42,759 bases of DNA from a virus: positions 1-42,759 of the IMG/VR virus record IMGVR_UViG_3300020478_000016. One strand, written 5' to 3'. A program made the position numbers and the translations under genes. The notes beneath the pieces are model-generated. The model had not been told where the DNA came from, did no database searches, and saw only the letters and a list, made by a program, of their open reading frames with translations. Every line of letters starts with the position of its first letter. The stretch's first letter is position 1. Of this stretch, positions 13,115 through 42,240 are shown in pieces.

Positions 13115-14893
13115 ATGCCAACCTTTAGTGCTACAGGATATGGAGCATATACACAGGTAATACCACCAAATGCTATTAATGTATCATATACTATAGCAGG
13201 TGCTGCTGGTGGTGATAGTAAACGTGATCCACCTGGTACTACATGGAATCAAATTGGTGGATTTGGTCGTGTTGGTAACATGTCCTTAAATAGTGTAAAT
13301 TTTCAATATACATTGACCTTCTACTGTGGTGGTAGAGGTGGTGCTGGATATGGCACCCAAGGGCCTGGTAACCCAGGTGGTGGTGGACCTTCACACTTTG
13401 CTAACGGTGGTGCTGGATATAGTGCTGGTGGAGGTGGTGGAGGTGCTTCTGGTGTAGTTCACAGTGGTGGTAATGGTTGGGGTAGTAAATGGATTGTTGT
13501 TTGTGGTGGAGGTGGTGGTGCTGCCCGTCAGATGAACAACACGGGACAGTATGCAGGTCTTGGATTGCAGGGTGGTACTACTACAGGTACGTTATATTCT
13601 CAAACTGGTGAATCAGCATCTGCAGGTAATACTGGTGGAGGTGGAGGTGGATCTACATTTGGTGTAGGTACTGGTACATTTGGTGGTAGAGCAGGATATC
13701 CATATTCTGGTGGTGGTCATTATGGACATGGAGGTAATTCTGCGTGGTTATCTGATTATATGAATAATGGACAATTGTTCCATTATCCAGGGTATGCTAA
13801 TTATGGTGAGGGATATTATTCCTTGAGTTGGGACTATGGAGCACCTATATTTTTAAGTATTATTCCAAATCCAGCACAAGTTGTACTTGGTAATACTGTT
13901 GATTTACAGTGGACTACTAGTGGTGAAACAACATACACATATATTGGTAGTAATGCAACAGATCCTGGAAACGTTGGTGGAGCAAATGTATTAAGTGGTA
14001 CAGCAACTGTTTCTCCTACTGTAATACCAACAACAACTTATACAGGTACATCATATGGTCCTGGTGGTGCATCAAATCAGGTGACTGCTAATGTAACAGT
14101 ATATGAGATGCCTAATGTTACAATTACTGCTGATCATACTACGATTACATTAGGAGAAAGTGCAGAAATATCGTGGGCAACTACAGGTACTGCTAATACA
14201 GCAAATTTCAATCCAGGAGTTGGTGGTGTTCCAATTTCATCAACACAAACTGTATCTCCAACAACAACTACCACTTATACTATTGATGTTAGTGCTAGTG
14301 GTGAACCATATGCATCAGCAGGATTAGATACTGTTCTTGTTGATTCAGATACTATTACTATTACAGTATTACAACCACCTAGTGGAACTCTTTCAGGACC
14401 AGCTACTATACCATGGGAAGCGAAACCAACACTACAGTATACTGGTACAAATGTAATAACATCTTTTACTTTAAGTCATAGATATTATTATGTTGATGAT
14501 ACCGTCACATCATGGCAAACAACAGAAGTTTTAAACACTGGTTCTGCAGTTTCAGGTAGTCATGAGCATGATATAGTTTACAATGATTCTACACCTCATG
14601 GATTTGGTCCAAAATATGTTGAGTACAGACTTTCTGGTGTAGGTTCTGGGTCTTTAACCTTTGAAGAATTTCATACAGTTAACATAAATATTGATACTAC
14701 ACCAGATCCTTTTAGCATACCAGCAACAGAAAATCTTTTACCAGATATTGATGTTATTACTCCTGATTCTGGTGTTATTGGTGGTGATGTTACTGTTACT
14801 GATATAGATATACCCGTGAAGATTAAATCAAATCAACCAATTAAAGTTGAGATTGAAGAAAGTGGTATTTGGTTGGATGTAACGGAGATTTAA
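13115..14893 (+). CDS. Gly-rich adhesin-like fibre protein with Ig-like repeats (paralog 2 of 4)
   Basis: A 592-aa protein starting 1 nt after the previous stop. The N-terminal ~245 residues are Gly-rich (CGGRGGAGYG, SAGGGGGGASG, NTGGGGGGSTFG) and cognate to, but longer than, the head of the preceding gene. Three Ig-like modules follow (IIPNPAQVVLGNTVDLQW, ITADHTTITLGESAEISW, then a PPSGTLSGPATIP module). The C-terminal tag is present as TDIDIPVKIKSNQPIKVEI. Same inferred role as its neighbours: a secreted-fold or virion-exposed fibre, not an enzyme. No transmembrane segment is seen. Confidence 0.72.
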   Translation: MPTFSATGYGAYTQVIPPNAINVSYTIAGAAGGDSKRDPPGTTWNQIGGFGRVGNMSLNSVNFQYTLTFYCGGRGGAGYGTQGPGNPGGGGPSHFANGGAGYSAGGGGGGASGVVHSGGNGWGSKWIVVCGGGGGAARQMNNTGQYAGLGLQGGTTTGTLYSQTGESASAGNTGGGGGGSTFGVGTGTFGGRAGYPYSGGGHYGHGGNSAWLSDYMNNGQLFHYPGYANYGEGYYSLSWDYGAPIFLSIIPNPAQVVLGNTVDLQWTTSGETTYTYIGSNATDPGNVGGANVLSGTATVSPTVIPTTTYTGTSYGPGGASNQVTANVTVYEMPNVTITADHTTITLGESAEISWATTGTANTANFNPGVGGVPISSTQTVSPTTTTTYTIDVSASGEPYASAGLDTVLVDSDTITITVLQPPSGTLSGPATIPWEAKPTLQYTGTNVITSFTLSHRYYYVDDTVTSWQTTEVLNTGSAVSGSHEHDIVYNDSTPHGFGPKYVEYRLSGVGSGSLTFEEFHTVNINIDTTPDPFSIPATENLLPDIDVITPDSGVIGGDVTVTDIDIPVKIKSNQPIKVEIEESGIWLDVTEI

Positions 14894-14894
14894 T

Positions 14895-16349
14895 ATGGGA
14901 TATCAATATAGTTCTTTTAATCCTCACGGTAATACATCACAATGTAGTGCTGGTAGTCATTGGTGGCCACAAGGTGGTAATTGGGGTGACATAGTTAGAG
15001 ATACTTTAACTAATGCATATATGGCACACCTTGGTAGGTATGGTGAAACTGGTGGAATGGAGCATTACTACAATTCTGTTGTTAGTGTAGTTGGGTATGG
15101 TAATTCATATAGTACACAATGGCTATATGATATGGTTTATCATGGTGGTCTTGCCAGTTCTGGAGGCAGTGGTGAATTAGATAACGTTTGGAGTCTGGGT
15201 CGGCATACCAACATGAGGTTGGGGTATTGTATTATATACGGGTGTACAAATCCCAGTGCTAGTAATTATAATTCAAGTGCTAATGTTGATGACGGAAGTT
15301 GTATAATTTATGGATGTACAGATCCTGCAGCGAACAACTATAATTCTAGTGCTAATATTGATAATGGATCATGTTCTTATGATGCAGTTTGGGTATCTAT
15401 TAGTGCCAGTCCAAATCCTTTATGTGCACCAAATAGTGTTACAATTAGTTGGTCTACACAGTATGCAGTTAGTGCTAGTATTAGTGGATATGGTGGTGTA
15501 TCAACTAATCAAAATGGATATACTAGTGGATCATTTAATACGACCCCATATAATAATCAAACATATACAATAAGTGCTACTGGAAAGGGTCCTAGTAATA
15601 CAACATCAGCAGGTACTACTGTTACAGTATACCAACAACCATCAGTAAATATAACTTCTAGTAATTCAACTATTGTAATTGGTGAAAGTACAACACTTTC
15701 GTGGAGTACAACTGGTACAGTTAATTCCTCATCAATAAATCAAGGCATTGGTGGTGTACCAAATAGTTCTAATACAACAGTAAGTCCAACATCTTCTAAA
15801 ACATATACTATTACATCGAGTGGACCCTGTGGAACAGTATCTGATAGTACAACTATTACAGTATTAACTCCACCATCAGCAACATTAACAGGACCATCAT
15901 CCATTAATTATGGTGATACTCTTACGTTTAATTATTCTACAACGTATTCTACATCTAGAGTATTAACTATTACATATAATTATTACGATCAAGTATTAAC
16001 AGATACAGTTAATGTTAGTGAGTCTGGATCATATAGTCCTACAATAACATGGACAGATCATGGTCCTCATTTAATATATGCACAATTAGCTGTTGTTGGT
16101 GCTGGTGGTAATGATCAAGCAACTAAAAGTGTACCAGTTAATATTGATACAACTCCTAACGTGATTAATATTCCTGCATCTGAAGATAAATTACCAGATG
16201 AGGACAATATTATTTCACCTGATGTATCAGTCACATCTAATGAAGTAAAGATTGAAGATATTGATATACCAGTAGAAATTAAATCTAGTAATCCTATCCT
16301 GATCGATATAGATGATCAAGATAATTGGCAAGAAATTAGGCAGATTTAA
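14895..16349 (+). CDS. Fibre protein with DUF4214-like head, GCTDP repeats and Ig-like domains (paralog 3 of 4)
   Basis: A 484-aa protein with a head unlike that of the two preceding paralogs. Residues about 33-90 (DTLTNAYMAHLGRYGETGG...HYYNSV) resemble the DUF4214 pattern of bacterial surface proteins, but only weakly. Two tandem ~22-aa Cys repeats follow (YGCTNPSASNYNSSANVDDG and YGCTDPAANNYNSSANIDNG), a module common in marine bacterial and phage surface proteins. Ig-like modules (ISASPNPLCAPNSVTISW, ITSSNSTIVIGESTTLSW, a PPSATLTGPSSINYG module) lead to the common C-terminal tag (EDIDIPVEIKSSNPILIDI). Likely a virion fibre whose N-terminal head was exchanged. Confidence 0.7.
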   Translation: MGYQYSSFNPHGNTSQCSAGSHWWPQGGNWGDIVRDTLTNAYMAHLGRYGETGGMEHYYNSVVSVVGYGNSYSTQWLYDMVYHGGLASSGGSGELDNVWSLGRHTNMRLGYCIIYGCTNPSASNYNSSANVDDGSCIIYGCTDPAANNYNSSANIDNGSCSYDAVWVSISASPNPLCAPNSVTISWSTQYAVSASISGYGGVSTNQNGYTSGSFNTTPYNNQTYTISATGKGPSNTTSAGTTVTVYQQPSVNITSSNSTIVIGESTTLSWSTTGTVNSSSINQGIGGVPNSSNTTVSPTSSKTYTITSSGPCGTVSDSTTITVLTPPSATLTGPSSINYGDTLTFNYSTTYSTSRVLTITYNYYDQVLTDTVNVSESGSYSPTITWTDHGPHLIYAQLAVVGAGGNDQATKSVPVNIDTTPNVINIPASEDKLPDEDNIISPDVSVTSNEVKIEDIDIPVEIKSSNPILIDIDDQDNWQEIRQI

Positions 16350-16351
16350 AC

Positions 16352-18244
16352 ATGGGAGTTTCTGGTAGTTTATATACATTCGATGCTTACTGGGGTGAGT
16401 TTACAAACCCATACCGTGATACTTTTTATACTTCCAACTATAGTGGTGAAGCGGTGGGTGATCCTCCCATATGGCAATTCATAGCCAGTAATGTTTGGAA
16501 TCTTTTTATGAGTAGCAGCAGTCCTGGAGTTGTTGGGAATGTTTATCCAGTATACAGATTTTGGACAGGTACTCAAGGACAAGCATGGGGTGGAACTACT
16601 CAAGGATTTGATCACTATTACAGTACTAACTCCAGTGCTCCTAGTGGTTATTACAATGAAGGTATTATAGGATATGCTTATGACAAATACGATCCTGGTC
16701 CAAATCGTGTAGCAGTTTATAGCTTTTGGAATCCTACCACTCATGATCATAAGTATAAGACCACTTCTAATCTCCCATATATCGGTGGATACCAAGCCGA
16801 AGGTATTGCATGGTACTCTCCCATAATAGTAAATGGTTGTTCAAATACTAGTGCCCAAAATTATAATGCATATGTAAATCAATCAAGCAGTGGTTGTACA
16901 TACGGTAGTGGTGATACCTGTGTATATTTTAACTGGACTAGATCTGCAGGAGATTCAAATTATATTTCTTGGGGTGGATATACTTTAGGACCTAATAGTG
17001 GTAATGGTACGTGGTGTTTTACTGCAGGACAGAGTTATCCTATAAGTTCATGGGGTAGTGGACCTGGATCAACAGGATTGAGAGTATTAAGTCCAACAGT
17101 TTTAGGACTTGATGATAGACAAGGTGCTGGTGCTGATAATGATTGGAATGATATGATTGTTTATGCTGGGCAAGGCATATTCTATCAATCTGGTAGTACA
17201 TGTTATTATCAAGCTCCTGGTCCAATATATGGTTGTACAGATCCTAACGCACAGAATTATAATTCAAATGCAGATGTAGATGATGGAACTTGTTGGTATA
17301 CACCACCAGCATGTAGTTTATCTGCGAGTCCAACATCATTGATACAAGGTGGTGGAAGTACATTATCATGGAGTATGAGTAATGCTTATGCTGCTAATAT
17401 AAACAATGGGGTTGGAGTTGTTGCTATTGGTTCAGGAAGTACAAATGTACAACCATCTAGCACAACCACATATACATTAAGTGTTACAGGACTTGGTGGT
17501 ACTGCATCTTCTGTGGCAACTGTTACAGTTTATATTCCTCCACAAATATCAGTTAGTCTTACTAATAGTTCTATTACTATCGGTGAACAAGCTACATTAA
17601 ATTATAGTACTAGTGGTGATGCTGATACAATGTATATTAGTCCGTTGGGATATAAACCATTATCATCTAGTTTGGCAGTAGCACCAACAGTTACAACAAC
17701 ATATGTTTTAACAGCAACTGGTAATGGTGGTGCTGATAGTGTGTCAATAACATTAACTGTGTATCGACCACCAACAGTTACTGCTACCGCACCCAGTACT
17801 GTCTTTTATGGTAATTCTTTTAATATTACATATGATACCACTTATACTAATACTTTAACTGCTACTATAAGATATTATTATCTTAATGATGTAATAACAA
17901 CTCAACAAATAACACCATCAGGAGGATCTTTAACAGTATCACCACCATATGATAACTTTGGACCACATGATGTTAGAGTAACATTTAATGCTGTTGGTGA
18001 TGATGGTTTGACTGATACTACTGAAGTTACTACTAATGTTAATATTGATACAACTCCTCAAGCATTTGCGATACCAGGATCTGAAGATTTACCAGATGAG
18101 GAGGTAATTAGTCCAGAAACTATTTTAGAATCTCCATCTATATTAATTGATGATATAGATATACCAGTAGAAATAAGAGCAAGTCAACCAATACAGGTTG
18201 ATATAAATGAAGCAGATAATTGGCAAGATGTTCGTGAATTATAG
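16352..18244 (+). CDS. Fibre protein with DUF5648-like head, GCTDP repeats and Ig-like domains (paralog 4 of 4)
   Basis: A 630-aa protein. Residues about 64-160 hold paired modules (VYPVYRFWTGTQGQAW...FDHYYSTN and VAVYSFWNPTTHDHKYKTT...GYQAEGIAWY) that fit the DUF5648-type repeat of secreted lytic or surface proteins. A Cys-containing domain (CVYFNWTRSAGDSNYISW ... GADNDWNDMIVYAG) lies at about 188-280, flanked by a degenerate and a good GCTDP repeat (YGCTDPNAQNYNSNADVDDG). Ig-like modules and the shared C-terminal tag (DDIDIPVEIRASQPIQVDI) follow. The stop TAG is followed 3 nt later by a late promoter, so this gene closes the upstream transcription unit. Confidence 0.7.
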   Translation: MGVSGSLYTFDAYWGEFTNPYRDTFYTSNYSGEAVGDPPIWQFIASNVWNLFMSSSSPGVVGNVYPVYRFWTGTQGQAWGGTTQGFDHYYSTNSSAPSGYYNEGIIGYAYDKYDPGPNRVAVYSFWNPTTHDHKYKTTSNLPYIGGYQAEGIAWYSPIIVNGCSNTSAQNYNAYVNQSSSGCTYGSGDTCVYFNWTRSAGDSNYISWGGYTLGPNSGNGTWCFTAGQSYPISSWGSGPGSTGLRVLSPTVLGLDDRQGAGADNDWNDMIVYAGQGIFYQSGSTCYYQAPGPIYGCTDPNAQNYNSNADVDDGTCWYTPPACSLSASPTSLIQGGGSTLSWSMSNAYAANINNGVGVVAIGSGSTNVQPSSTTTYTLSVTGLGGTASSVATVTVYIPPQISVSLTNSSITIGEQATLNYSTSGDADTMYISPLGYKPLSSSLAVAPTVTTTYVLTATGNGGADSVSITLTVYRPPTVTATAPSTVFYGNSFNITYDTTYTNTLTATIRYYYLNDVITTQQITPSGGSLTVSPPYDNFGPHDVRVTFNAVGDDGLTDTTEVTTNVNIDTTPQAFAIPGSEDLPDEEVISPETILESPSILIDDIDIPVEIRASQPIQVDINEADNWQDVREL

Positions 18245-33441: not shown

Positions 33442-33539
33442 ACAATCTCATCACTGAAATAGGTTACATCATCATTGGTGGAGCATTAGCATTCATCCCA
33501 GTATACATACTGGGACTTATATTAAAACAAAATGACTGA
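33438..33539 (+). CDS. One-helix membrane micropeptide before heme oxygenase, 33 aa
   Basis: MNNLITEIGYIIIGGALAFI then PVYILGLILKQND: one transmembrane helix with a central Ile-Pro and a polar C-terminus. It overlaps the upstream micropeptide by 4 nt and the heme oxygenase start by 8 nt. The layout superficially recalls small photosynthetic subunits such as PsbM or PetG, but helix composition alone cannot show this. Confidence 0.5.
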   Translation: MNNLITEIGYIIIGGALAFIPVYILGLILKQND

Positions 33540-34206
33540 TTTAGCAGCACAATTGAAATTAGGGACCAAGAAATCCCATACAGCAGCAGAGAACACCAAA
33601 TTTGTTGGTTCATTCTTACGTGGTGTTGTATCAAGAGATAGTTATCGTGTATTGATTGCTAATTTCTACTTTGTTTATCGTGCAATGGAAGAACAATTGT
33701 TTAAATACAAGGATCATCCATGTATTAAACCAATATACTTCACAGAACTACATAGAACTGATGCATTAGCAAAAGATTGTGAGTATTTCTATGGTACAAA
33801 TTGGAAAACAATTATTCAACCTAGTGAAGCAACTCAACAATATGTTAATAGAATCAGAGAGGTTGATCCTGATACATTAGTAGGACATCATTACACAAGA
33901 TATCTTGGTGATTTATCTGGTGGACAAATACTAGCAACAATTGCAGGTAATGCACTAGATTTAGACAAAGAGAATGGTCTTGCATTCTATGATTTCCCTG
34001 ATATTGATGATAAAACAAATTTTAAAACAAATTATAGAGCAGCATTAGACACCTTACCATTAGATATACATGATATTAATAAGATTATAGCAGAGGCAAA
34101 CTTTGCTTTTCGTCTTAACATGTATATGTTTGAAGAATTAGCAGGTAATCCCTTCAAATCAACGATGAAGGTGCTCTGTAGTCTAGTACAGAAGCAAATC
34201 AAATGA
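33532..34206 (+). CDS. ho1: Heme oxygenase
   Basis: A 224-aa protein, close to the usual ~230-240 aa of cyanobacterial HO1. The proximal heme ligand region is LKLGTKKSHTAAENTKFVGS (His16), and the distal helix signature is YLGDLSGGQILA with its Gly pair. YVNRIREVDPDTLVGHHYTR and the C-terminal EANFAFRLNMYMFEELAG are also typical. It opens heme to biliverdin, the first step toward phycobilins, using reduced ferredoxin. No bilin reductase gene (pcyA, pebS) is in this window. Hydrophobic micropeptides overlap it on both sides. The family is certain; benefit to the phage by supplying bilins is known for related cyanophages. Confidence 0.95.
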   Translation: MTDLAAQLKLGTKKSHTAAENTKFVGSFLRGVVSRDSYRVLIANFYFVYRAMEEQLFKYKDHPCIKPIYFTELHRTDALAKDCEYFYGTNWKTIIQPSEATQQYVNRIREVDPDTLVGHHYTRYLGDLSGGQILATIAGNALDLDKENGLAFYDFPDIDDKTNFKTNYRAALDTLPLDIHDINKIIAEANFAFRLNMYMFEELAGNPFKSTMKVLCSLVQKQIK

Positions 34207-35585: not shown

Positions 35586-35666
35586 GTTTTCCACAGGTAG
35601 TTTTCCACAACTTTTAATAAACCTGTGGAAAACTCTATGTTTTTATAAATGGTTTAAAAAACATAG
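35586..35666. other. Origin-like element: DnaA-box cluster plus AT-rich inverted repeat
   Basis: The 332 nt between 35547 and 35879 hold no convincing gene. Here GTTTTCCACAGGT (35586-35598) and its perfect inverse (35621-35633) flank a third TTTTCCACA (35601-35609). Next comes a 10-bp AT-rich inverted repeat, CTATGTTTTT (35635-35644) with AAAAACATAG (35657-35666). DnaA-type boxes next to a meltable AT-rich stretch are the layout of bacterial origins; a phage origin is inferred, not shown. Confidence 0.5.
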
Positions 35667-35791
35667 TATGTGTGAACTAATCATTAAGAATGTGCGGGGT
35701 TGTAGCAGTCTTGGCGTACCGCCCATCATTTGTCAATCCTCTGTTACATTCTGACATTATCACAGAAACTTCACAATGTGGCACAGCGTAG

Positions 35792-35820
35792 TTGACAGAT
35801 TTTGAGTTTTCTGGTATTAT
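35792..35820 (+). promoter_or_regulatory. Near-consensus sigma-70 promoter
   Basis: TTGACA, a 17-nt spacer, then TATTAT with a TGG extended -10. The best promoter in the window, 60 nt upstream of the 88-aa KTSC-like gene. AAGTACAAAAAG follows the -10 by 4 nt. Confidence 0.8.
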
Positions 35821-35879
35821 AAGAAAGTACAAAAAGACAAAAAGTTCAAAAACTCACTTTTTTAAAAACTGAAAGTATT

Positions 35880-36146
35880 ATGAAACTTAAGGAACCAACC
35901 TTTAGTGGATTTGATAGTTCTGCTATTAAATCTATTTCATTTAACAACAATTTGTGTGAAATAGTGTTCAAATCTAGTGATAAATGTTATAATTACACAG
36001 TAAATGATAACAATTTCGTAAAAACAGTCGAAAAGACTATCAAAGACGGTGAATCTATTGGAAAACTAGTAAATAATGCAATAAAAGCAAATAAACTAGA
36101 AATAATTGAATATTCCACTGATAAACTAAATAAAACTGTAGTATAA
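35880..36146 (+). CDS. KTSC-like domain protein, 88 aa
   Basis: FDSSAIKSISFNNNLCEIVF and YNYTVNDNNFVKTVEKTIKD resemble the KTSC domain (an 'S-S-x-I' start, a central beta hairpin and an aromatic 'Y-x-Y'), a small domain of unknown function found in bacteria and phages. It is driven by the strongest promoter of the window and so is probably an immediate-early gene. The second half (NFVKTVEKTIKDGESIGKLV) resembles that of the late 88-aa protein at 39,591. Confidence 0.6.
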   Translation: MKLKEPTFSGFDSSAIKSISFNNNLCEIVFKSSDKCYNYTVNDNNFVKTVEKTIKDGESIGKLVNNAIKANKLEIIEYSTDKLNKTVV

Positions 36147-36154
36147 TTACTATT

Positions 36155-36313
36155 ATGTCTAGGAAAACACGTAATAATCATGATTCATTCAGTAAAATGA
36201 ATGAAATACGAGTTGATTACGAAGATTATGGATATGAGATACAAAATAGTAACAGACAAAAGAAACACAAGGAGCATAAGTTTAAGAAAAGAGAATACGA
36301 TTACGATGACTAA
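36155..36313 (+). CDS. Small charged protein, 52 aa
   Basis: MSRKTRNNHDSFSKMNEIRV, a central acidic YEDYGYE, then a very basic QKKHKEHKFKKREY tail. Could bind RNA or DNA by charge. A TATAAT at 36142-36147 just upstream might give it a separate start. Unknown family. Confidence 0.52.
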   Translation: MSRKTRNNHDSFSKMNEIRVDYEDYGYEIQNSNRQKKHKEHKFKKREYDYDD

Positions 36314-36336
36314 CTAAAGAGTATATTTGTACTACC

Positions 36337-36358
36337 TGTGGAAAACTATTTTTCCACA
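36337..36358. repeat. Inverted DnaA-box pair (intergenic)
   Basis: TGTGGAAAA and TTTTCCACA separated by exactly 4 nt: a 22-bp palindrome that can also form a 9-bp hairpin. The same geometry recurs at 36854-36875. Confidence 0.75.
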
Positions 36359-36370
36359 AGCAAGGGAGGA

Positions 36371-36393
36371 CAGTTGAGAAACTGGACTTTTTT
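36371..36393 (+). terminator. Small hairpin/T-tract terminator
   Basis: CAGTT-GAGA-AACTG stem-loop followed by GAC and six T. A related sequence recurs at 36889-36908 and 37314-37332 in front of the larger terminators. Confidence 0.5.
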
Positions 36394-36441
36394 GTGACAA
36401 ACGCTTAACAATTGGCATGTTGTCAACCCCCTGGGGTGTAT

Positions 36442-36447
36442 AATTAA
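36442..36447 (+). promoter_or_regulatory. Early promoter -10 for the histone-like gene
   Basis: TATAAT, with GAGTTCAAATGAATTTC beginning 4 nt after it. No good -35 at 17 nt. The 13-nt leader piece TCAAATGAATTTC (36456-36468) is repeated at 38095-38107. Confidence 0.6.
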
Positions 36448-36470
36448 AGAGTTCAAATGAATTTCATTTC

Positions 36471-36893
36471 ATGCCAACCAAGTCAACCGCAGTTTCTACA
36501 ACCAAAGCACGTCCAGCACGTCGCCGCCGTTCAACTGCCAAGACTACGACCAAACCAGTTGCCAAAGTGTCCACCACCAAAGCAACAAAACCCACTGCTC
36601 CCAAACTTATGGAACAACCCAAGGTCATTACCACATCATTCAAAAATGGTGAAGCGTACAACAAACAGGTTGAGTGGGTAAAACCAGAGGTAGATCTGAT
36701 CTCCTTTGATTCCTACAGAAAGGATTTCCACAATCGCATGTTGGTCCACAATTATGAGTGTCACATGCTGGTTGAGGATCTCAAGAAAGCATACCACGCT
36801 TCAACACCTTTCATCAAGAAGTCGTTAGACTTTCTTCAGGTTCAGTACAAGGTTGTGGAAAAACAGTTTTCCACAGTCTCGACAACCAATTGA
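36471..36893 (+). CDS. Histone H1-like DNA-binding protein, 140 aa
   Basis: The first ~50 residues are a Lys/Arg/Thr/Ala/Pro tail (TTKARPARRRRSTAKTTTKP, VAKVSTTKATKPTAPKL) like the tails of eukaryotic H1 and bacterial H1-like proteins. The remaining ~90 residues are a mixed helical domain (FKNGEAYNKQVEWVKPEVDL, VEDLKKAYHASTPFIKKSLD). It probably coats or compacts DNA. It has its own promoter and terminator, is more GC-rich than the virion genes, and contains an inverted pair of DnaA-type boxes near its 3' end. No specific family is claimed. Confidence 0.65.
   Translation: MPTKSTAVSTTKARPARRRRSTAKTTTKPVAKVSTTKATKPTAPKLMEQPKVITTSFKNGEAYNKQVEWVKPEVDLISFDSYRKDFHNRMLVHNYECHMLVEDLKKAYHASTPFIKKSLDFLQVQYKVVEKQFSTVSTTN
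36854..36875. repeat. Inverted DnaA-box pair (inside a gene)
   Basis: TGTGGAAAA-N4-TTTTCCACA within the 3' end of the histone-like gene, with the same 4-nt gap as the intergenic pair at 36337-36358. Confidence 0.75.
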
Positions 36894-36914
36894 GAAACTG
36901 TCCTTTTTTGTTAC

Positions 36915-36940
36915 AACCCCGTTACATACGGGGTTTTTTT
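36915..36940 (+). terminator. Rho-independent terminator
   Basis: 8-bp stem AACCCCGT/ACGGGGTT with a 5-nt loop and a run of T, 22 nt after the histone-like gene. Confidence 0.85.
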
Positions 36941-36954
36941 ATGTCTTGCCGTGG

Positions 36955-36960
36955 TATCCT
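36955..36960 (+). promoter_or_regulatory. Candidate -10 after terminator
   Basis: TATCCT preceded by TGG (extended -10), 14 nt beyond the terminator T-tract, with GGGTAGTCAACC 4 nt downstream. 26 nt before the 107-aa gene. Confidence 0.45.
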
Positions 36961-36985
36961 TAAGGGGTAGTCAACCAATTTTCAC

Positions 36986-37309
36986 ATGCGTAAGATTGAG
37001 TCAGAGATGCAAGCAGCAATTGCCGAGCGTCGCAACTGGTCTAAATCTAACACCTGCGTCAGCGTTGATAGTGACAACAACACAACCGTCACACTACATG
37101 GAAACACAATTGCCACAATTTTTAACAATGGTGACATGCGTCTTTCATCGTGCGGTTGGGAAACTGTCACAACCAAGTCAAGACTAAACGCTATCCTTGA
37201 TGTGTTTTTCCACAGGTTAGGGATCTGGCAAAAGGACTTCACTTGGTACATCGGACACCATGACGGTCAAGTCGATGAGTTCTACGATGGTTACGAGATC
37301 GTTAGGTGA
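36986..37309 (+). CDS. Conserved phage/cyanobacterial-type protein, 107 aa
   Basis: MRKIESEMQAAIAERRNWSK, SVDSDNNTTVTLHGNTIATI and the motif WETVTTKSRLNAILDVFFHR. The combination of an N-terminal helix with NW, a TVxLHGNxIA hairpin and TTKSRLNAIL is, from memory, widespread in phages and some cyanobacteria without a known function. It is a self-contained transcription unit with promoter and terminator. Contains one TTTTCCACA (37206-37214). Confidence 0.68.
   Translation: MRKIESEMQAAIAERRNWSKSNTCVSVDSDNNTTVTLHGNTIATIFNNGDMRLSSCGWETVTTKSRLNAILDVFFHRLGIWQKDFTWYIGHHDGQVDEFYDGYEIVR
37206..37214 (+). repeat. DnaA-box-like TTTTCCACA in the 107-aa gene
   Basis: Exact copy, followed by GGT as in the box at 35587 and the inverse box at 35624. 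Confidence 0.7.
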
Positions 37310-37337
37310 CAGTTGACAAACTGGTCTTTTTTACAAC

Positions 37338-37362
37338 AAACCCGTTACAAACGGGTTTTTTT
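37338..37362 (+). terminator. Rho-independent terminator
   Basis: AAACCCGT/ACGGGTTT stem with loop TACAA, then seven T counting those paired. Nearly the same loop as the terminator at 36915. Confidence 0.85.
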
Positions 37363-37376
37363 GTGCCTTGATCTTT

Positions 37377-37382
37377 TATACT
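37377..37382 (+). promoter_or_regulatory. Candidate early promoter -10
   Basis: TATACT 14 nt after the terminator T-tract, with GAGTACACACG 4 nt downstream. The position expected for a -35 falls in the T-tract. Confidence 0.6.
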
Positions 37383-37407
37383 ATGGGAGTACACACGAAA
37401 GAACCAC

Positions 37408-37581
37408 ATGGTTGCCACTGACATCACTGTCACACTGACACCTGAACAGCATGGACTCATCCTAGACATGTTTTCCACAATTGCTGACCTTGGTTTGTAC
37501 GATGACCCTGTGGAAAACGAGCAGGACTCATGCCCTGACCTATTCGACAAAACATGGGATGCCGTCATCGCTGCCAAATGA
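37408..37581 (+). CDS. Small acidic protein, 57 aa
   Basis: MVATDITVTLTPEQHGLILD, then IADLGLYDDPVENEQDSCPD and FDKTWDAVIAAK. A strand-helix pattern followed by an acidic loop. Lies between its own promoter and terminator and contains two opposed TTTTCCACA boxes (37471, 37509). Function unknown. Confidence 0.6.
   Translation: MVATDITVTLTPEQHGLILDMFSTIADLGLYDDPVENEQDSCPDLFDKTWDAVIAAK
37471..37517. repeat. Opposed DnaA-box-like motifs in the 57-aa gene
   Basis: TTTTCCACA at 37471-37479 and TGTGGAAAA at 37509-37517, both exact and both inside coding sequence, facing the opposite way from the 4-nt-gap pairs. Confidence 0.7.
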
Positions 37582-37595
37582 CAAACCGTCCACCC

Positions 37596-37618
37596 AACCC
37601 CTTCGATGGGGTTTTTTT
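37596..37618 (+). terminator. Rho-independent terminator
   Basis: AACCCC/GGGGTT stem with a 6-nt loop, then seven T, 14 nt after the 57-aa gene. Confidence 0.85.
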
Positions 37619-37623
37619 GTGCT

Positions 37624-37629
37624 TATAAT
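37624..37629 (+). promoter_or_regulatory. Early promoter -10 fused to terminator
   Basis: TATAAT only 5 nt beyond the T-tract, so any -35 contact would fall on the terminator stem. AGGTCAACACGG follows 4 nt later. Confidence 0.6.
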
Positions 37630-37653
37630 TAGTAGGTCAACACGGGACACCAC

Positions 37654-37809
37654 ATGACCTGGTTTTCTGAACACCTTCTCAACCACGTCCACTGGATTTG
37701 GGTTCGCCTCTCCGAGGATGCACCACGTGACCCACTCCATCGCCACTTGACCTTGATTTTCGACATCGGGGTCCGTGATACAGTCAACTGGAGACTGGAC
37801 AATCAATGA
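37654..37809 (+). CDS. Small Trp/His-rich protein, 51 aa
   Basis: MTWFSEHLLNHVHWIWVRLS then DPLHRHLTLIFDIGVRDTVN. Rich in Trp and His, possibly amphipathic and membrane-touching. An isolated unit with its own promoter and terminator. Function unknown. Confidence 0.55.
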   Translation: MTWFSEHLLNHVHWIWVRLSEDAPRDPLHRHLTLIFDIGVRDTVNWRLDNQ

Positions 37810-37819
37810 ACTGACCACC

Positions 37820-37843
37820 AGCACCCTTCGGGGTGCTTTTTTT
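37820..37843 (+). terminator. Rho-independent terminator with UUCG loop
   Basis: AGCACCC-TTCG-GGGTGCT followed by T-tract: a 7-bp stem closed by the stable UUCG tetraloop, 11 nt after the 51-aa gene. Confidence 0.9.
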
Positions 37844-37848
37844 GTGCT

Positions 37849-37854
37849 TATAAT
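37849..37854 (+). promoter_or_regulatory. Early promoter -10 fused to terminator
   Basis: TATAAT 5 nt past the T-tract, GAGTACACAACG 4 nt later. The same TTTTTTTGTGCTTATAAT junction occurs at 37612-37629. Confidence 0.62.
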
Positions 37855-37882
37855 GGTCGAGTACACAACGCTACTGCCTTCT

Positions 37883-38032
37883 ATGCGTCGTCTCGCCAAG
37901 TTCAAGGGTTCCTGGGTTTGGTTCTACCATCAATTTAAGACTGGTCGCATCGATCAATCACGGATGGAAACCCTGGTTGCTGGTCCACCTGCTACAGCGT
38001 ACAGATCGATGAGCATCCTGAACGATTTCTGA
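37883..38032 (+). CDS. Small basic protein, 49 aa
   Basis: I chose ATG 37883 because the longer frame would start inside the previous gene and cross a terminator and promoter. MRRLAKFKGSWVWFYHQFKT, then GRIDQSRMETLVAGPPATAY. Very basic N-terminus with aromatic residues. Function unknown. Confidence 0.57.
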   Translation: MRRLAKFKGSWVWFYHQFKTGRIDQSRMETLVAGPPATAYRSMSILNDF

Positions 38033-38054
38033 ACCAGTCCACAAACTGTCCACC

Positions 38055-38077
38055 AAACCCCCAAACGGGGGTTTTTT
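38055..38077 (+). terminator. Rho-independent terminator
   Basis: AAACCCCC/GGGGGTTT stem with loop AAAC and a T-run. Confidence 0.88.
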
Positions 38078-38081
38078 CATG

Positions 38082-38087
38082 TATTCT
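38082..38087 (+). promoter_or_regulatory. Early promoter -10 fused to terminator
   Basis: TATTCT 4 nt past the T-tract; GAGTCAAATGAATTTC follows 4 nt later, matching the histone-like gene leader. Confidence 0.5.
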
Positions 38088-38111
38088 ATAAGAGTCAAAT
38101 GAATTTCTTCT

Positions 38112-41050: not shown

Positions 41051-41350
41051 ATGGCAGCAGGATCTGGTATTTCACGATTAGGAGACATGGAGTCTGGGCA
41101 CCAGTGTTGGCACCCAGTAAAGACTGTAACAGGGTCTGCAAATGTGATGATTAATAAAGTACCTGCTAATAAAGTAGGAGATATTACAAAGACCCATAAA
41201 TGTGGTAAGAAACCTCCTCATCCTGATAAATGCAGTAAAGGTTCCAAGACACTACTAATTAATAAGAAACCAGCGATGAGAATTGGTGATCTATTATCAC
41301 CTGGTGGTGCTGTTATGGCAGAAGGTTCACATTCGGTTCTTGCTGGATAA
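41051..41350 (+). CDS. PAAR-repeat spike tip protein (T4 gp5.4-like)
   Basis: A 99-aa protein, the usual size for single PAAR proteins. The PAAR layout is visible: SGISRLGDMESGHQCWHPV, NVMINKVPANKVGDITKTHK, then KTLLINKKPAMRIGDLLSPG and AEGSHSVLAG, with His/Cys residues (H17, C19, H22, H49, C51) suited to metal binding at the cone tip. PAAR proteins sharpen the gp5-type membrane-puncturing spike. It precedes gp25 and gp6, as expected for a baseplate cluster. Confidence 0.9.
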   Translation: MAAGSGISRLGDMESGHQCWHPVKTVTGSANVMINKVPANKVGDITKTHKCGKKPPHPDKCSKGSKTLLINKKPAMRIGDLLSPGGAVMAEGSHSVLAG

Positions 41351-41844: not shown

Positions 41845-42240
41845 GTGCCCATTTTTGCTCCACTAAAGGATCTAAAAATTAATTTTAAGCCTCATCCCGT
41901 TACTGGTGACCTTCAAGTCACTAAAGATGAGACAGCTGTTAAGCAATCTGTTGTCAATTTATTGATGACAATACCTGGTGAGAGACCATTTAATAACGAT
42001 CTTGGATCTAATTTATCGGCATTGTTATTTGAACCGATGGATTATGGTGTGGCAGCACAAATAAAAAATGAAATTACAACAACTATAGAAAATTACGAAC
42101 CAAGAATAGGTATCATAGATTTAAATGTAGAACCTTTATTTAATGAAAATTCGTTTGATGTTCATTTGGAGTTTACGATACGTGGACGTGATGATAATGT
42201 TCCCCTTGAGATCAACTTCTTACTTCAGAGAACTCAATGA
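41845..42240 (+). CDS. 25: Baseplate wedge protein gp25
   Basis: GTG start, 131 aa, the usual length of the gp25 family (132 aa in T4). The family pattern is clear: NPVT-like PVTGDLQVTKDETAVKQSV, LLMTIPGERPFNNDLGSNLS, LLFEPMDYGVAAQIKNEI and the conserved NYEPRIGI motif, then EFTIRGRDD. gp25 sits in the inner baseplate and helps nucleate the sheath. Its TGA overlaps the ATG of gp6 (ATGA), the same order as in other T4-like cyanophages. Confidence 0.92.
   Translation: MPIFAPLKDLKINFKPHPVTGDLQVTKDETAVKQSVVNLLMTIPGERPFNNDLGSNLSALLFEPMDYGVAAQIKNEITTTIENYEPRIGIIDLNVEPLFNENSFDVHLEFTIRGRDDNVPLEINFLLQRTQ

Follow-up and report, generated by a model that had tools for sequence, protein, structure and literature searches.

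DnaA boxes in a cyanophage fragment

The DNA considered here, IMG/VR record IMGVR_UViG_3300020478_000016 (42,759 bp, referred to throughout as the window), is part of the genome of a T4-like cyanophage (Kyanoviridae); Marine virus AG-345-P14 and S-CAM3 are the records nearest to it. On the left the window encodes tail fibre and virion proteins, and at its right end PAAR, gp25 and gp6. Within 1.93 kb, at 35587-37517, the nonamer TTTTCCACA occurs in ten exact copies, on both strands; the sole further exact copy in the window (27741) lies within a 2OG oxygenase gene. TTTTCCACA is the DnaA box of the chromosomal origin (oriC) of Synechococcus elongatus, Anabaena and Cyanothece (PMC4674748). Both the sites, with their strands, and the identity of the nonamer with the box of the S. 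elongatus origin had been noted in a first reading of the sequence alone (hereafter, the original prediction); every coordinate proved exact, and the literature agrees on the identity. The first three boxes lie in the intergenic gap upstream of a phrog_4357 gene, in an element situated 6.3 kb upstream of gp25, among the following features.

35587..35595, plus strand: DnaA box 1 of the core cluster, exact match
35601..35609, plus strand: DnaA box 2 of the core cluster, exact match, 14 bp past box 1
35624..35632, minus strand: DnaA box 3 of the core cluster, adjoining the AT-rich block
35633..35665, no strand: AT-rich stretch by the boxes, consensus AAATGGTTTAAAAAACATAGG, candidate unwinding region
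35690..35785, plus strand: conserved noncoding block, consensus GTGCGG..GTTGTTGKCTTAGCACG..ATCGA..GTCAA..TGACA..AAAGTGGCACA
35792..35820, plus strand: early-type sigma-70 promoter, TTGACA-N17-TATTAT, 11/12 consensus, with the -10 inside the aligned conserved region
35821..35879, plus strand: AT-rich leader, from promoter to gene
35880..36146, plus strand: 88-aa gene, phrog_4357 / T4-like GC 805, weakly KTSC-like
36337..36358, no strand: palindromic DnaA box pair, intergenic (minus at 36337, plus at 36350)
36854..36875, no strand: palindromic DnaA box pair in the 3' end of the open reading frame 36471-36893 (minus at 36854, plus at 36867)
37206..37214, plus strand: DnaA box within the open reading frame 36986-37309 (Kyano_Gp96, PF23790)
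37471..37479, plus strand: DnaA box within the 57-aa reading frame 37408-37581
37509..37517, minus strand: DnaA box within the same 57-aa reading frame
41051..41350, plus strand: PAAR protein gene (T4 gp5.4), synteny marker
41845..42240, plus strand: gp25 baseplate wedge gene, then gp6, synteny marker

Dinucleotide shuffles of the window give 0.78 expected copies of TTTTCCACA (maximum 3) against the 11 observed. For the 1.93-kb stretch the shuffles predict about 0.035 copies, which puts the Poisson P(>=10) near 1e-21; simulating the stretch with its own second-order Markov model yields 0.09 (maximum 2 in 3000 simulations). The original prediction, whose own figure was 0.015 copies in 1.9 kb, was right that the cluster exceeds chance. 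When all 9-mers are compared, TTTTCCACA is the most clustered of the window, with 10 copies within 2 kb versus 7 for the runner-up. One-mismatch copies show no excess over the window (21, including the exact ones, versus 18.4 expected), so it is the exact sequence that is kept. All ten boxes are preceded by G or T and followed by A or G, in agreement with the extended form (G/T)TTTTCCACA(R) proposed earlier. The pairs at 36337/36350 and 36854/36867 are an identical 22-bp palindrome, TGTGGAAAA-N4-TTTTCCACA, an arrangement absent from the original prediction.

The core boxes form a cluster of putative initiator sites, and next to them lies an AT-rich stretch that is predicted to open easily. The least stable 50-bp segment of the element begins at 35636 and falls in the lowest 1.0% of the window. 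No phage-encoded DnaA (PF00308) was found in the window. The 88-aa phrog_4357 protein has a fairly confident predicted fold (pLDDT 82), which gave no match to the PDB at E < 0.001 and only a weak hint of KTSC.

The module in related phages

Alignment of relatives reveals a module of fixed order: DnaA boxes, the AT-rich stretch, a block of about 100 bp, an early promoter, an AT-rich leader and phrog_4357. The alignment shows a block that contains GTTGTTGKCTTAGCACG and ATCGAnnGTCAA, then a TGACA..TGGCACA part, followed by a TATAAT-type promoter. In S-CAM3, S-CAM1, S-RIM32, Syn1, S-PM2 and Sf-CH3, phrog_4357 holds the corresponding place upstream of gp25, with 2-3 exact boxes some 200-420 bp upstream of it; AG-345-P14 has two exact boxes upstream of phrog_4357. 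Syn9 has the boxes, the block core and a promoter, with a different gene downstream. In addition to these six isolates and Syn9, the box cluster occurs in S-CREM1, DSL-LC02, DSL-LC03 and S-RIM4. The placement of box 3 beside the AT-rich block is common to S-PM2, Syn1, S-RIM32, S-CAM3 and AG-345-P14, and positions 35624-35697 are 84-85% identical to two related loci, L122 and L144. The block core, GKCTTAGCRC, is present in a single copy per genome in most module-bearing isolates, with three in Sf-CH3. Both the place and the architecture of the element are therefore conserved among relatives. In S-PM2, 33 open reading frames just upstream of the element were deleted in passage (PMC4503421), but the element was retained (LN828717), which we count in favour of an origin. 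A structured RNA at the block was rejected, as an Rfam search returned no family above the cut-off and RNAalifold found no conserved pairs.

Prevalence was measured from two sides. In the gene-selected test, loci were picked solely by the neighbouring phrog_4357 protein, given at least 400 bp of upstream DNA (n=38). At least two boxes lie within 700 bp upstream of phrog_4357 in 19 of these loci, at a distance of 200-450 bp; loci L161-L168 and L177-L179 have an unrelated upstream context. Upstream regions hold 49 boxes in 26 kb, compared with 13 in 205 kb elsewhere, an enrichment of about 30-fold, and permuted control motifs occur 0 times upstream of phrog_4357. In the motif-selected test, 2.9 million viral contigs were searched for the box palindrome; 100 contigs carry it, and 97 of these are T4-like cyanophages. 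Of the 100, 67 encode gp25 or gp6, and in every one of them the palindrome precedes gp25/gp6, by 2.5-8.6 kb (mostly 2.9-3.6 kb); 30 of the remaining 33 match those contigs or isolate genomes in DNA. Many palindrome contigs carry 6-12 boxes, often 21-22 bp apart, equal to two helical turns. Anchoring on gp25 instead, we obtained 12 loci whose upstream DNA spans 6 kb or more, and 8 of them have a cluster of at least two boxes. Since contigs that are related do not represent independent cases, all of these figures tell how common the cluster is in the collection and should not be read as numbers of evolutionary events.

The gene-selected and motif-selected tests agree on a fixed locus. Counting the nonamer across whole genomes of relatives, a check that the original prediction had proposed, shows it to be rare and scattered except for the cluster at the corresponding locus. 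Absence from the same loci in relatives, which had been named as grounds for abandoning the prediction, holds for a minority that keep the rest of the module; in many others the cluster is there.

Host DnaA and known origins

In picocyanobacteria, oriC is expected between dnaN and thrC (PMC2836286). TTTTCCACA is found there 2-6 times in four Cyanobiaceae genomes, two of which have the 12-bp spacing seen in the phages. Tandem box pairs occur in 21 of 121 Cyanobiaceae genomes, versus none for the reversed pattern, and pairs at the 12-bp spacing in 2 of the 121. We rejected the idea that the phage element is a copy of the host origin because this 12-bp tandem arrangement is nearly absent from hosts. 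The phage element resembles the dnaN-side oriC of cyanobacteria in its TTTTCCACA clusters and, for some genomes, in the 12-bp spacing, and in having an AT-rich stretch by the boxes; unlike oriC, it has neither dnaN nor dnaA and lies beside a phage-specific block and an early promoter. Tandem TTTTCCACA pairs also occur outside dnaN-thrC in Cyanobiaceae genomes (L413, L415-L424, L427-L432 and L434), with one common arrangement in three of them (L427-L429). Such pairs could be host loci of the datA or DARS type.

In each of the nine cyanobacteria examined we found a DnaA domain IV whose core is largely shared around FGGKDHTTV/DHSTV. The likely hosts are cyanobacteria encoding DnaA, and their DnaA likely recognizes the phage boxes, though not necessarily in every host. 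We consider it very probable that the boxes serve as sites for host DnaA in the first place.

In T4, oriE and gene 6 are 1.7 kb apart, oriE being upstream and the PAAR gene 5.4 lying between them. This origin contains 12-nt iterons and requires an early promoter (PMC3016281). As in oriE, the cyanophage element is upstream of PAAR and gene 6, with an early promoter nearby and repeated short sites. T4 oriE has RepEA/RepEB in addition to its 12-nt iterons. It lies inside gene 5, whereas the element sits between genes, in most cases 3-7 kb upstream of gp25/gp6, a larger distance in which gp25 intervenes, the synteny itself being preserved. Iteron-like repeats were found only in some box-free cyanophage relatives. 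DnaA boxes at T4 oriE were rejected, there being no cluster, just single one-mismatch sites, and we know of no use of host DnaA by T4 origins. The cyanophage element may be the counterpart of oriE with a different initiator, at a comparable place. The origins of P1, F and R6K use host DnaA plus an initiator of their own. What they have in common with the cyanophages is an AT-rich stretch with host DnaA boxes next to it and, for some relatives, repeats that resemble iterons; they differ in that no Rep-type initiator gene was identified here and that the phage is a lytic T4-type cyanophage with its own replisome.

A proposed origin and its alternatives

On balance, we think it somewhat more probable than not that T4-like cyanophages have a conserved replication-origin element and that the cluster is the part of it to which DnaA binds. 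The original prediction had raised an origin that recruits DnaA, and the conserved locus, the oriC clusters of some picocyanobacteria and the likely DnaA-encoding hosts all favour it. DnaA binding, strand opening and origin firing are what we infer from the exactness of the sites, their conserved place and architecture, and their matches to some host oriC. Host DnaA would bind the two or three consensus boxes just upstream of the AT-rich stretch, the block of about 100 bp and the early sigma-70 promoter. Once bound, it would help the DNA to open, probably aided by early transcripts running through the AT-rich leader next to it, and the T4-type replisome of the phage would load on the opened DNA and start the first rounds of replication, from which recombination-dependent replication would later take over. 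In this phage, the additional boxes in the following 1.6 kb would increase the capture of DnaA at the site, and they may pull DnaA away from the host origin as well.

These findings suggest that many T4-like cyanophages, marine and freshwater, start DNA copying with the host initiator DnaA. A single theta origin has been predicted for Syn9 (PMC2984593), the sole statement on a cyanophage origin that we found in the literature, where we also found no paper tying cyanophages to DnaA boxes. The replication start of T4-like cyanophages thus appears unmapped, and the element provides a precise 300-bp candidate in many isolates. If the proposal is true, the start of phage replication is tied to the initiator protein of the host, a clear departure from T4.

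Several observations weigh against such an origin. We know of no requirement for the host initiator by T4 in E. coli. The AT-rich parts of the element, although within the lowest 1-1.4% of the window in stability, are not the window minimum, and most of the viral-contig loci are fragments, in addition to the relatedness noted above. Between dnaN and thrC, the marine Synechococcus WH7803 and RCC307 have no exact box, only degenerate sites, with just 14 and 8 exact copies in their whole chromosomes, and that their DnaA has an affinity for TTTTCCACA is presumed. The GC skew of S-PM2 and S-CAM3 reaches no extreme at the element; strand-composition switches are not found at two of the T4 origins either (PMC3016281), and a switch of this kind is a supporting, not a strictly defining, mark of an origin. 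Finally, S-RSM4 and S-MbCM7 keep the block and promoter with no boxes, and a box cluster is likewise absent from P-SSM2, P-SSM4 and S-SCSM2R, so the boxes are not essential to every lineage; they are common, not universal.

Some of the box-free relatives carry other repeats. S-RSM4 (L187), S-MbCM7 (L188) and L171-L175 have an inverted repeat, TTCTCAATAA..TTGAGAATCA, with variations, at the position of the boxes, and several box-free members, including L176 and L181, have direct repeats of the AAGATACTGT type. The box-free set (L171-L176, L181, L187 and L188) points to a possible exchange of initiator sites. A broader proposal, that most T4-like cyanophages initiate at one oriE-like locus via host DnaA, with exchangeable initiator-binding sites, is tentative; consistent with it, S-RSM4, S-MbCM7 and L171-L175 have one or both of these repeat types in place of the boxes, with block and promoter kept.

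The alternative also raised by the original prediction is a DnaA sink or decoy, in which the boxes bind host DnaA and stop host initiation, phage replication being independent of DnaA. As a complete explanation we hold this to be unlikely. Ten exact boxes in 1.9 kb compare with 14 in the whole 2.37-Mb chromosome of WH7803, some phages have arrays of 10-12 boxes spaced mostly by 21-22 bp, and plasmids bearing DnaA boxes titrate DnaA in E. coli (PMC5835720). A decoy, however, has no need for a fixed locus, a conserved flanking block or a promoter, all three of which are present, and many phages have just two or three boxes. An origin using host DnaA is favoured over a simple decoy because the locus is fixed, the adjoining block is conserved, and both an AT-rich stretch and an early promoter are at hand; given the many boxes here, titration may be an added effect.

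Slightly less probable again is transcriptional control, by which host DnaA would activate or repress the early promoter and small early genes, tying transcription to the host cell cycle. An early-type promoter does follow the boxes in aligned modules, and DnaA regulates promoters in E. coli (PMC5835720), but the core boxes are about 160-205 bp upstream of the -35 in the window, and comparably placed elsewhere, which is far for classical control, and the promoter is retained in box-free relatives. It is improbable that another protein, of phage or host, happens to recognize TTTTCCACA: different inverted repeats occupy the same place in some relatives, yet the boxes match exactly the cyanobacterial DnaA consensus and the oriC clusters of the same host family. 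We know of no DARS in cyanobacteria. Least probable by our estimate is a phage element of the DARS or datA type, altering the nucleotide state of DnaA (regenerating or removing ATP-DnaA) and not serving as an initiation site: three close boxes that differ in orientation resemble DARS, whose first example was a 70-bp segment with three boxes in the ColE1 origin, and the E. coli loci are likewise small noncoding DnaA-box clusters away from oriC (PMC5835720), but those have a fixed box geometry with IHF/Fis sites and an orientation-dependent DARS activity, whereas box order, orientation and spacing differ among the phages.

Beyond the core cluster, the boxes at 36337-37517 are particular to this lineage and may add DnaA capture or titration; additional boxes occur in L144 and AG-345-P14 too, at different positions. 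The original prediction took the in-gene copies as a sign of selection on coding sequence, which is unsupported as stated: the small genes that host the boxes at 36854-37517 do not align in DNA with those of the nearest relatives, L122 and L144, and in L109, the closest by gp25 (90.6% DNA identity), the match begins only at 37796. The region at 36300-38100 is a run of short genes with similar intrinsic terminators and TATAAT-like sites directly after these; it is G+C-rich (up to 48%), with reversed GC skew, and has the appearance of several early gene cassettes, each under its own control. Elsewhere in the window, a heme oxygenase gene (PF01126), an auxiliary metabolic gene, lies at 33532-34206, and three adjacent virion structural genes at 13115-18244, all phrog_2155, are apparent tandem paralogues.

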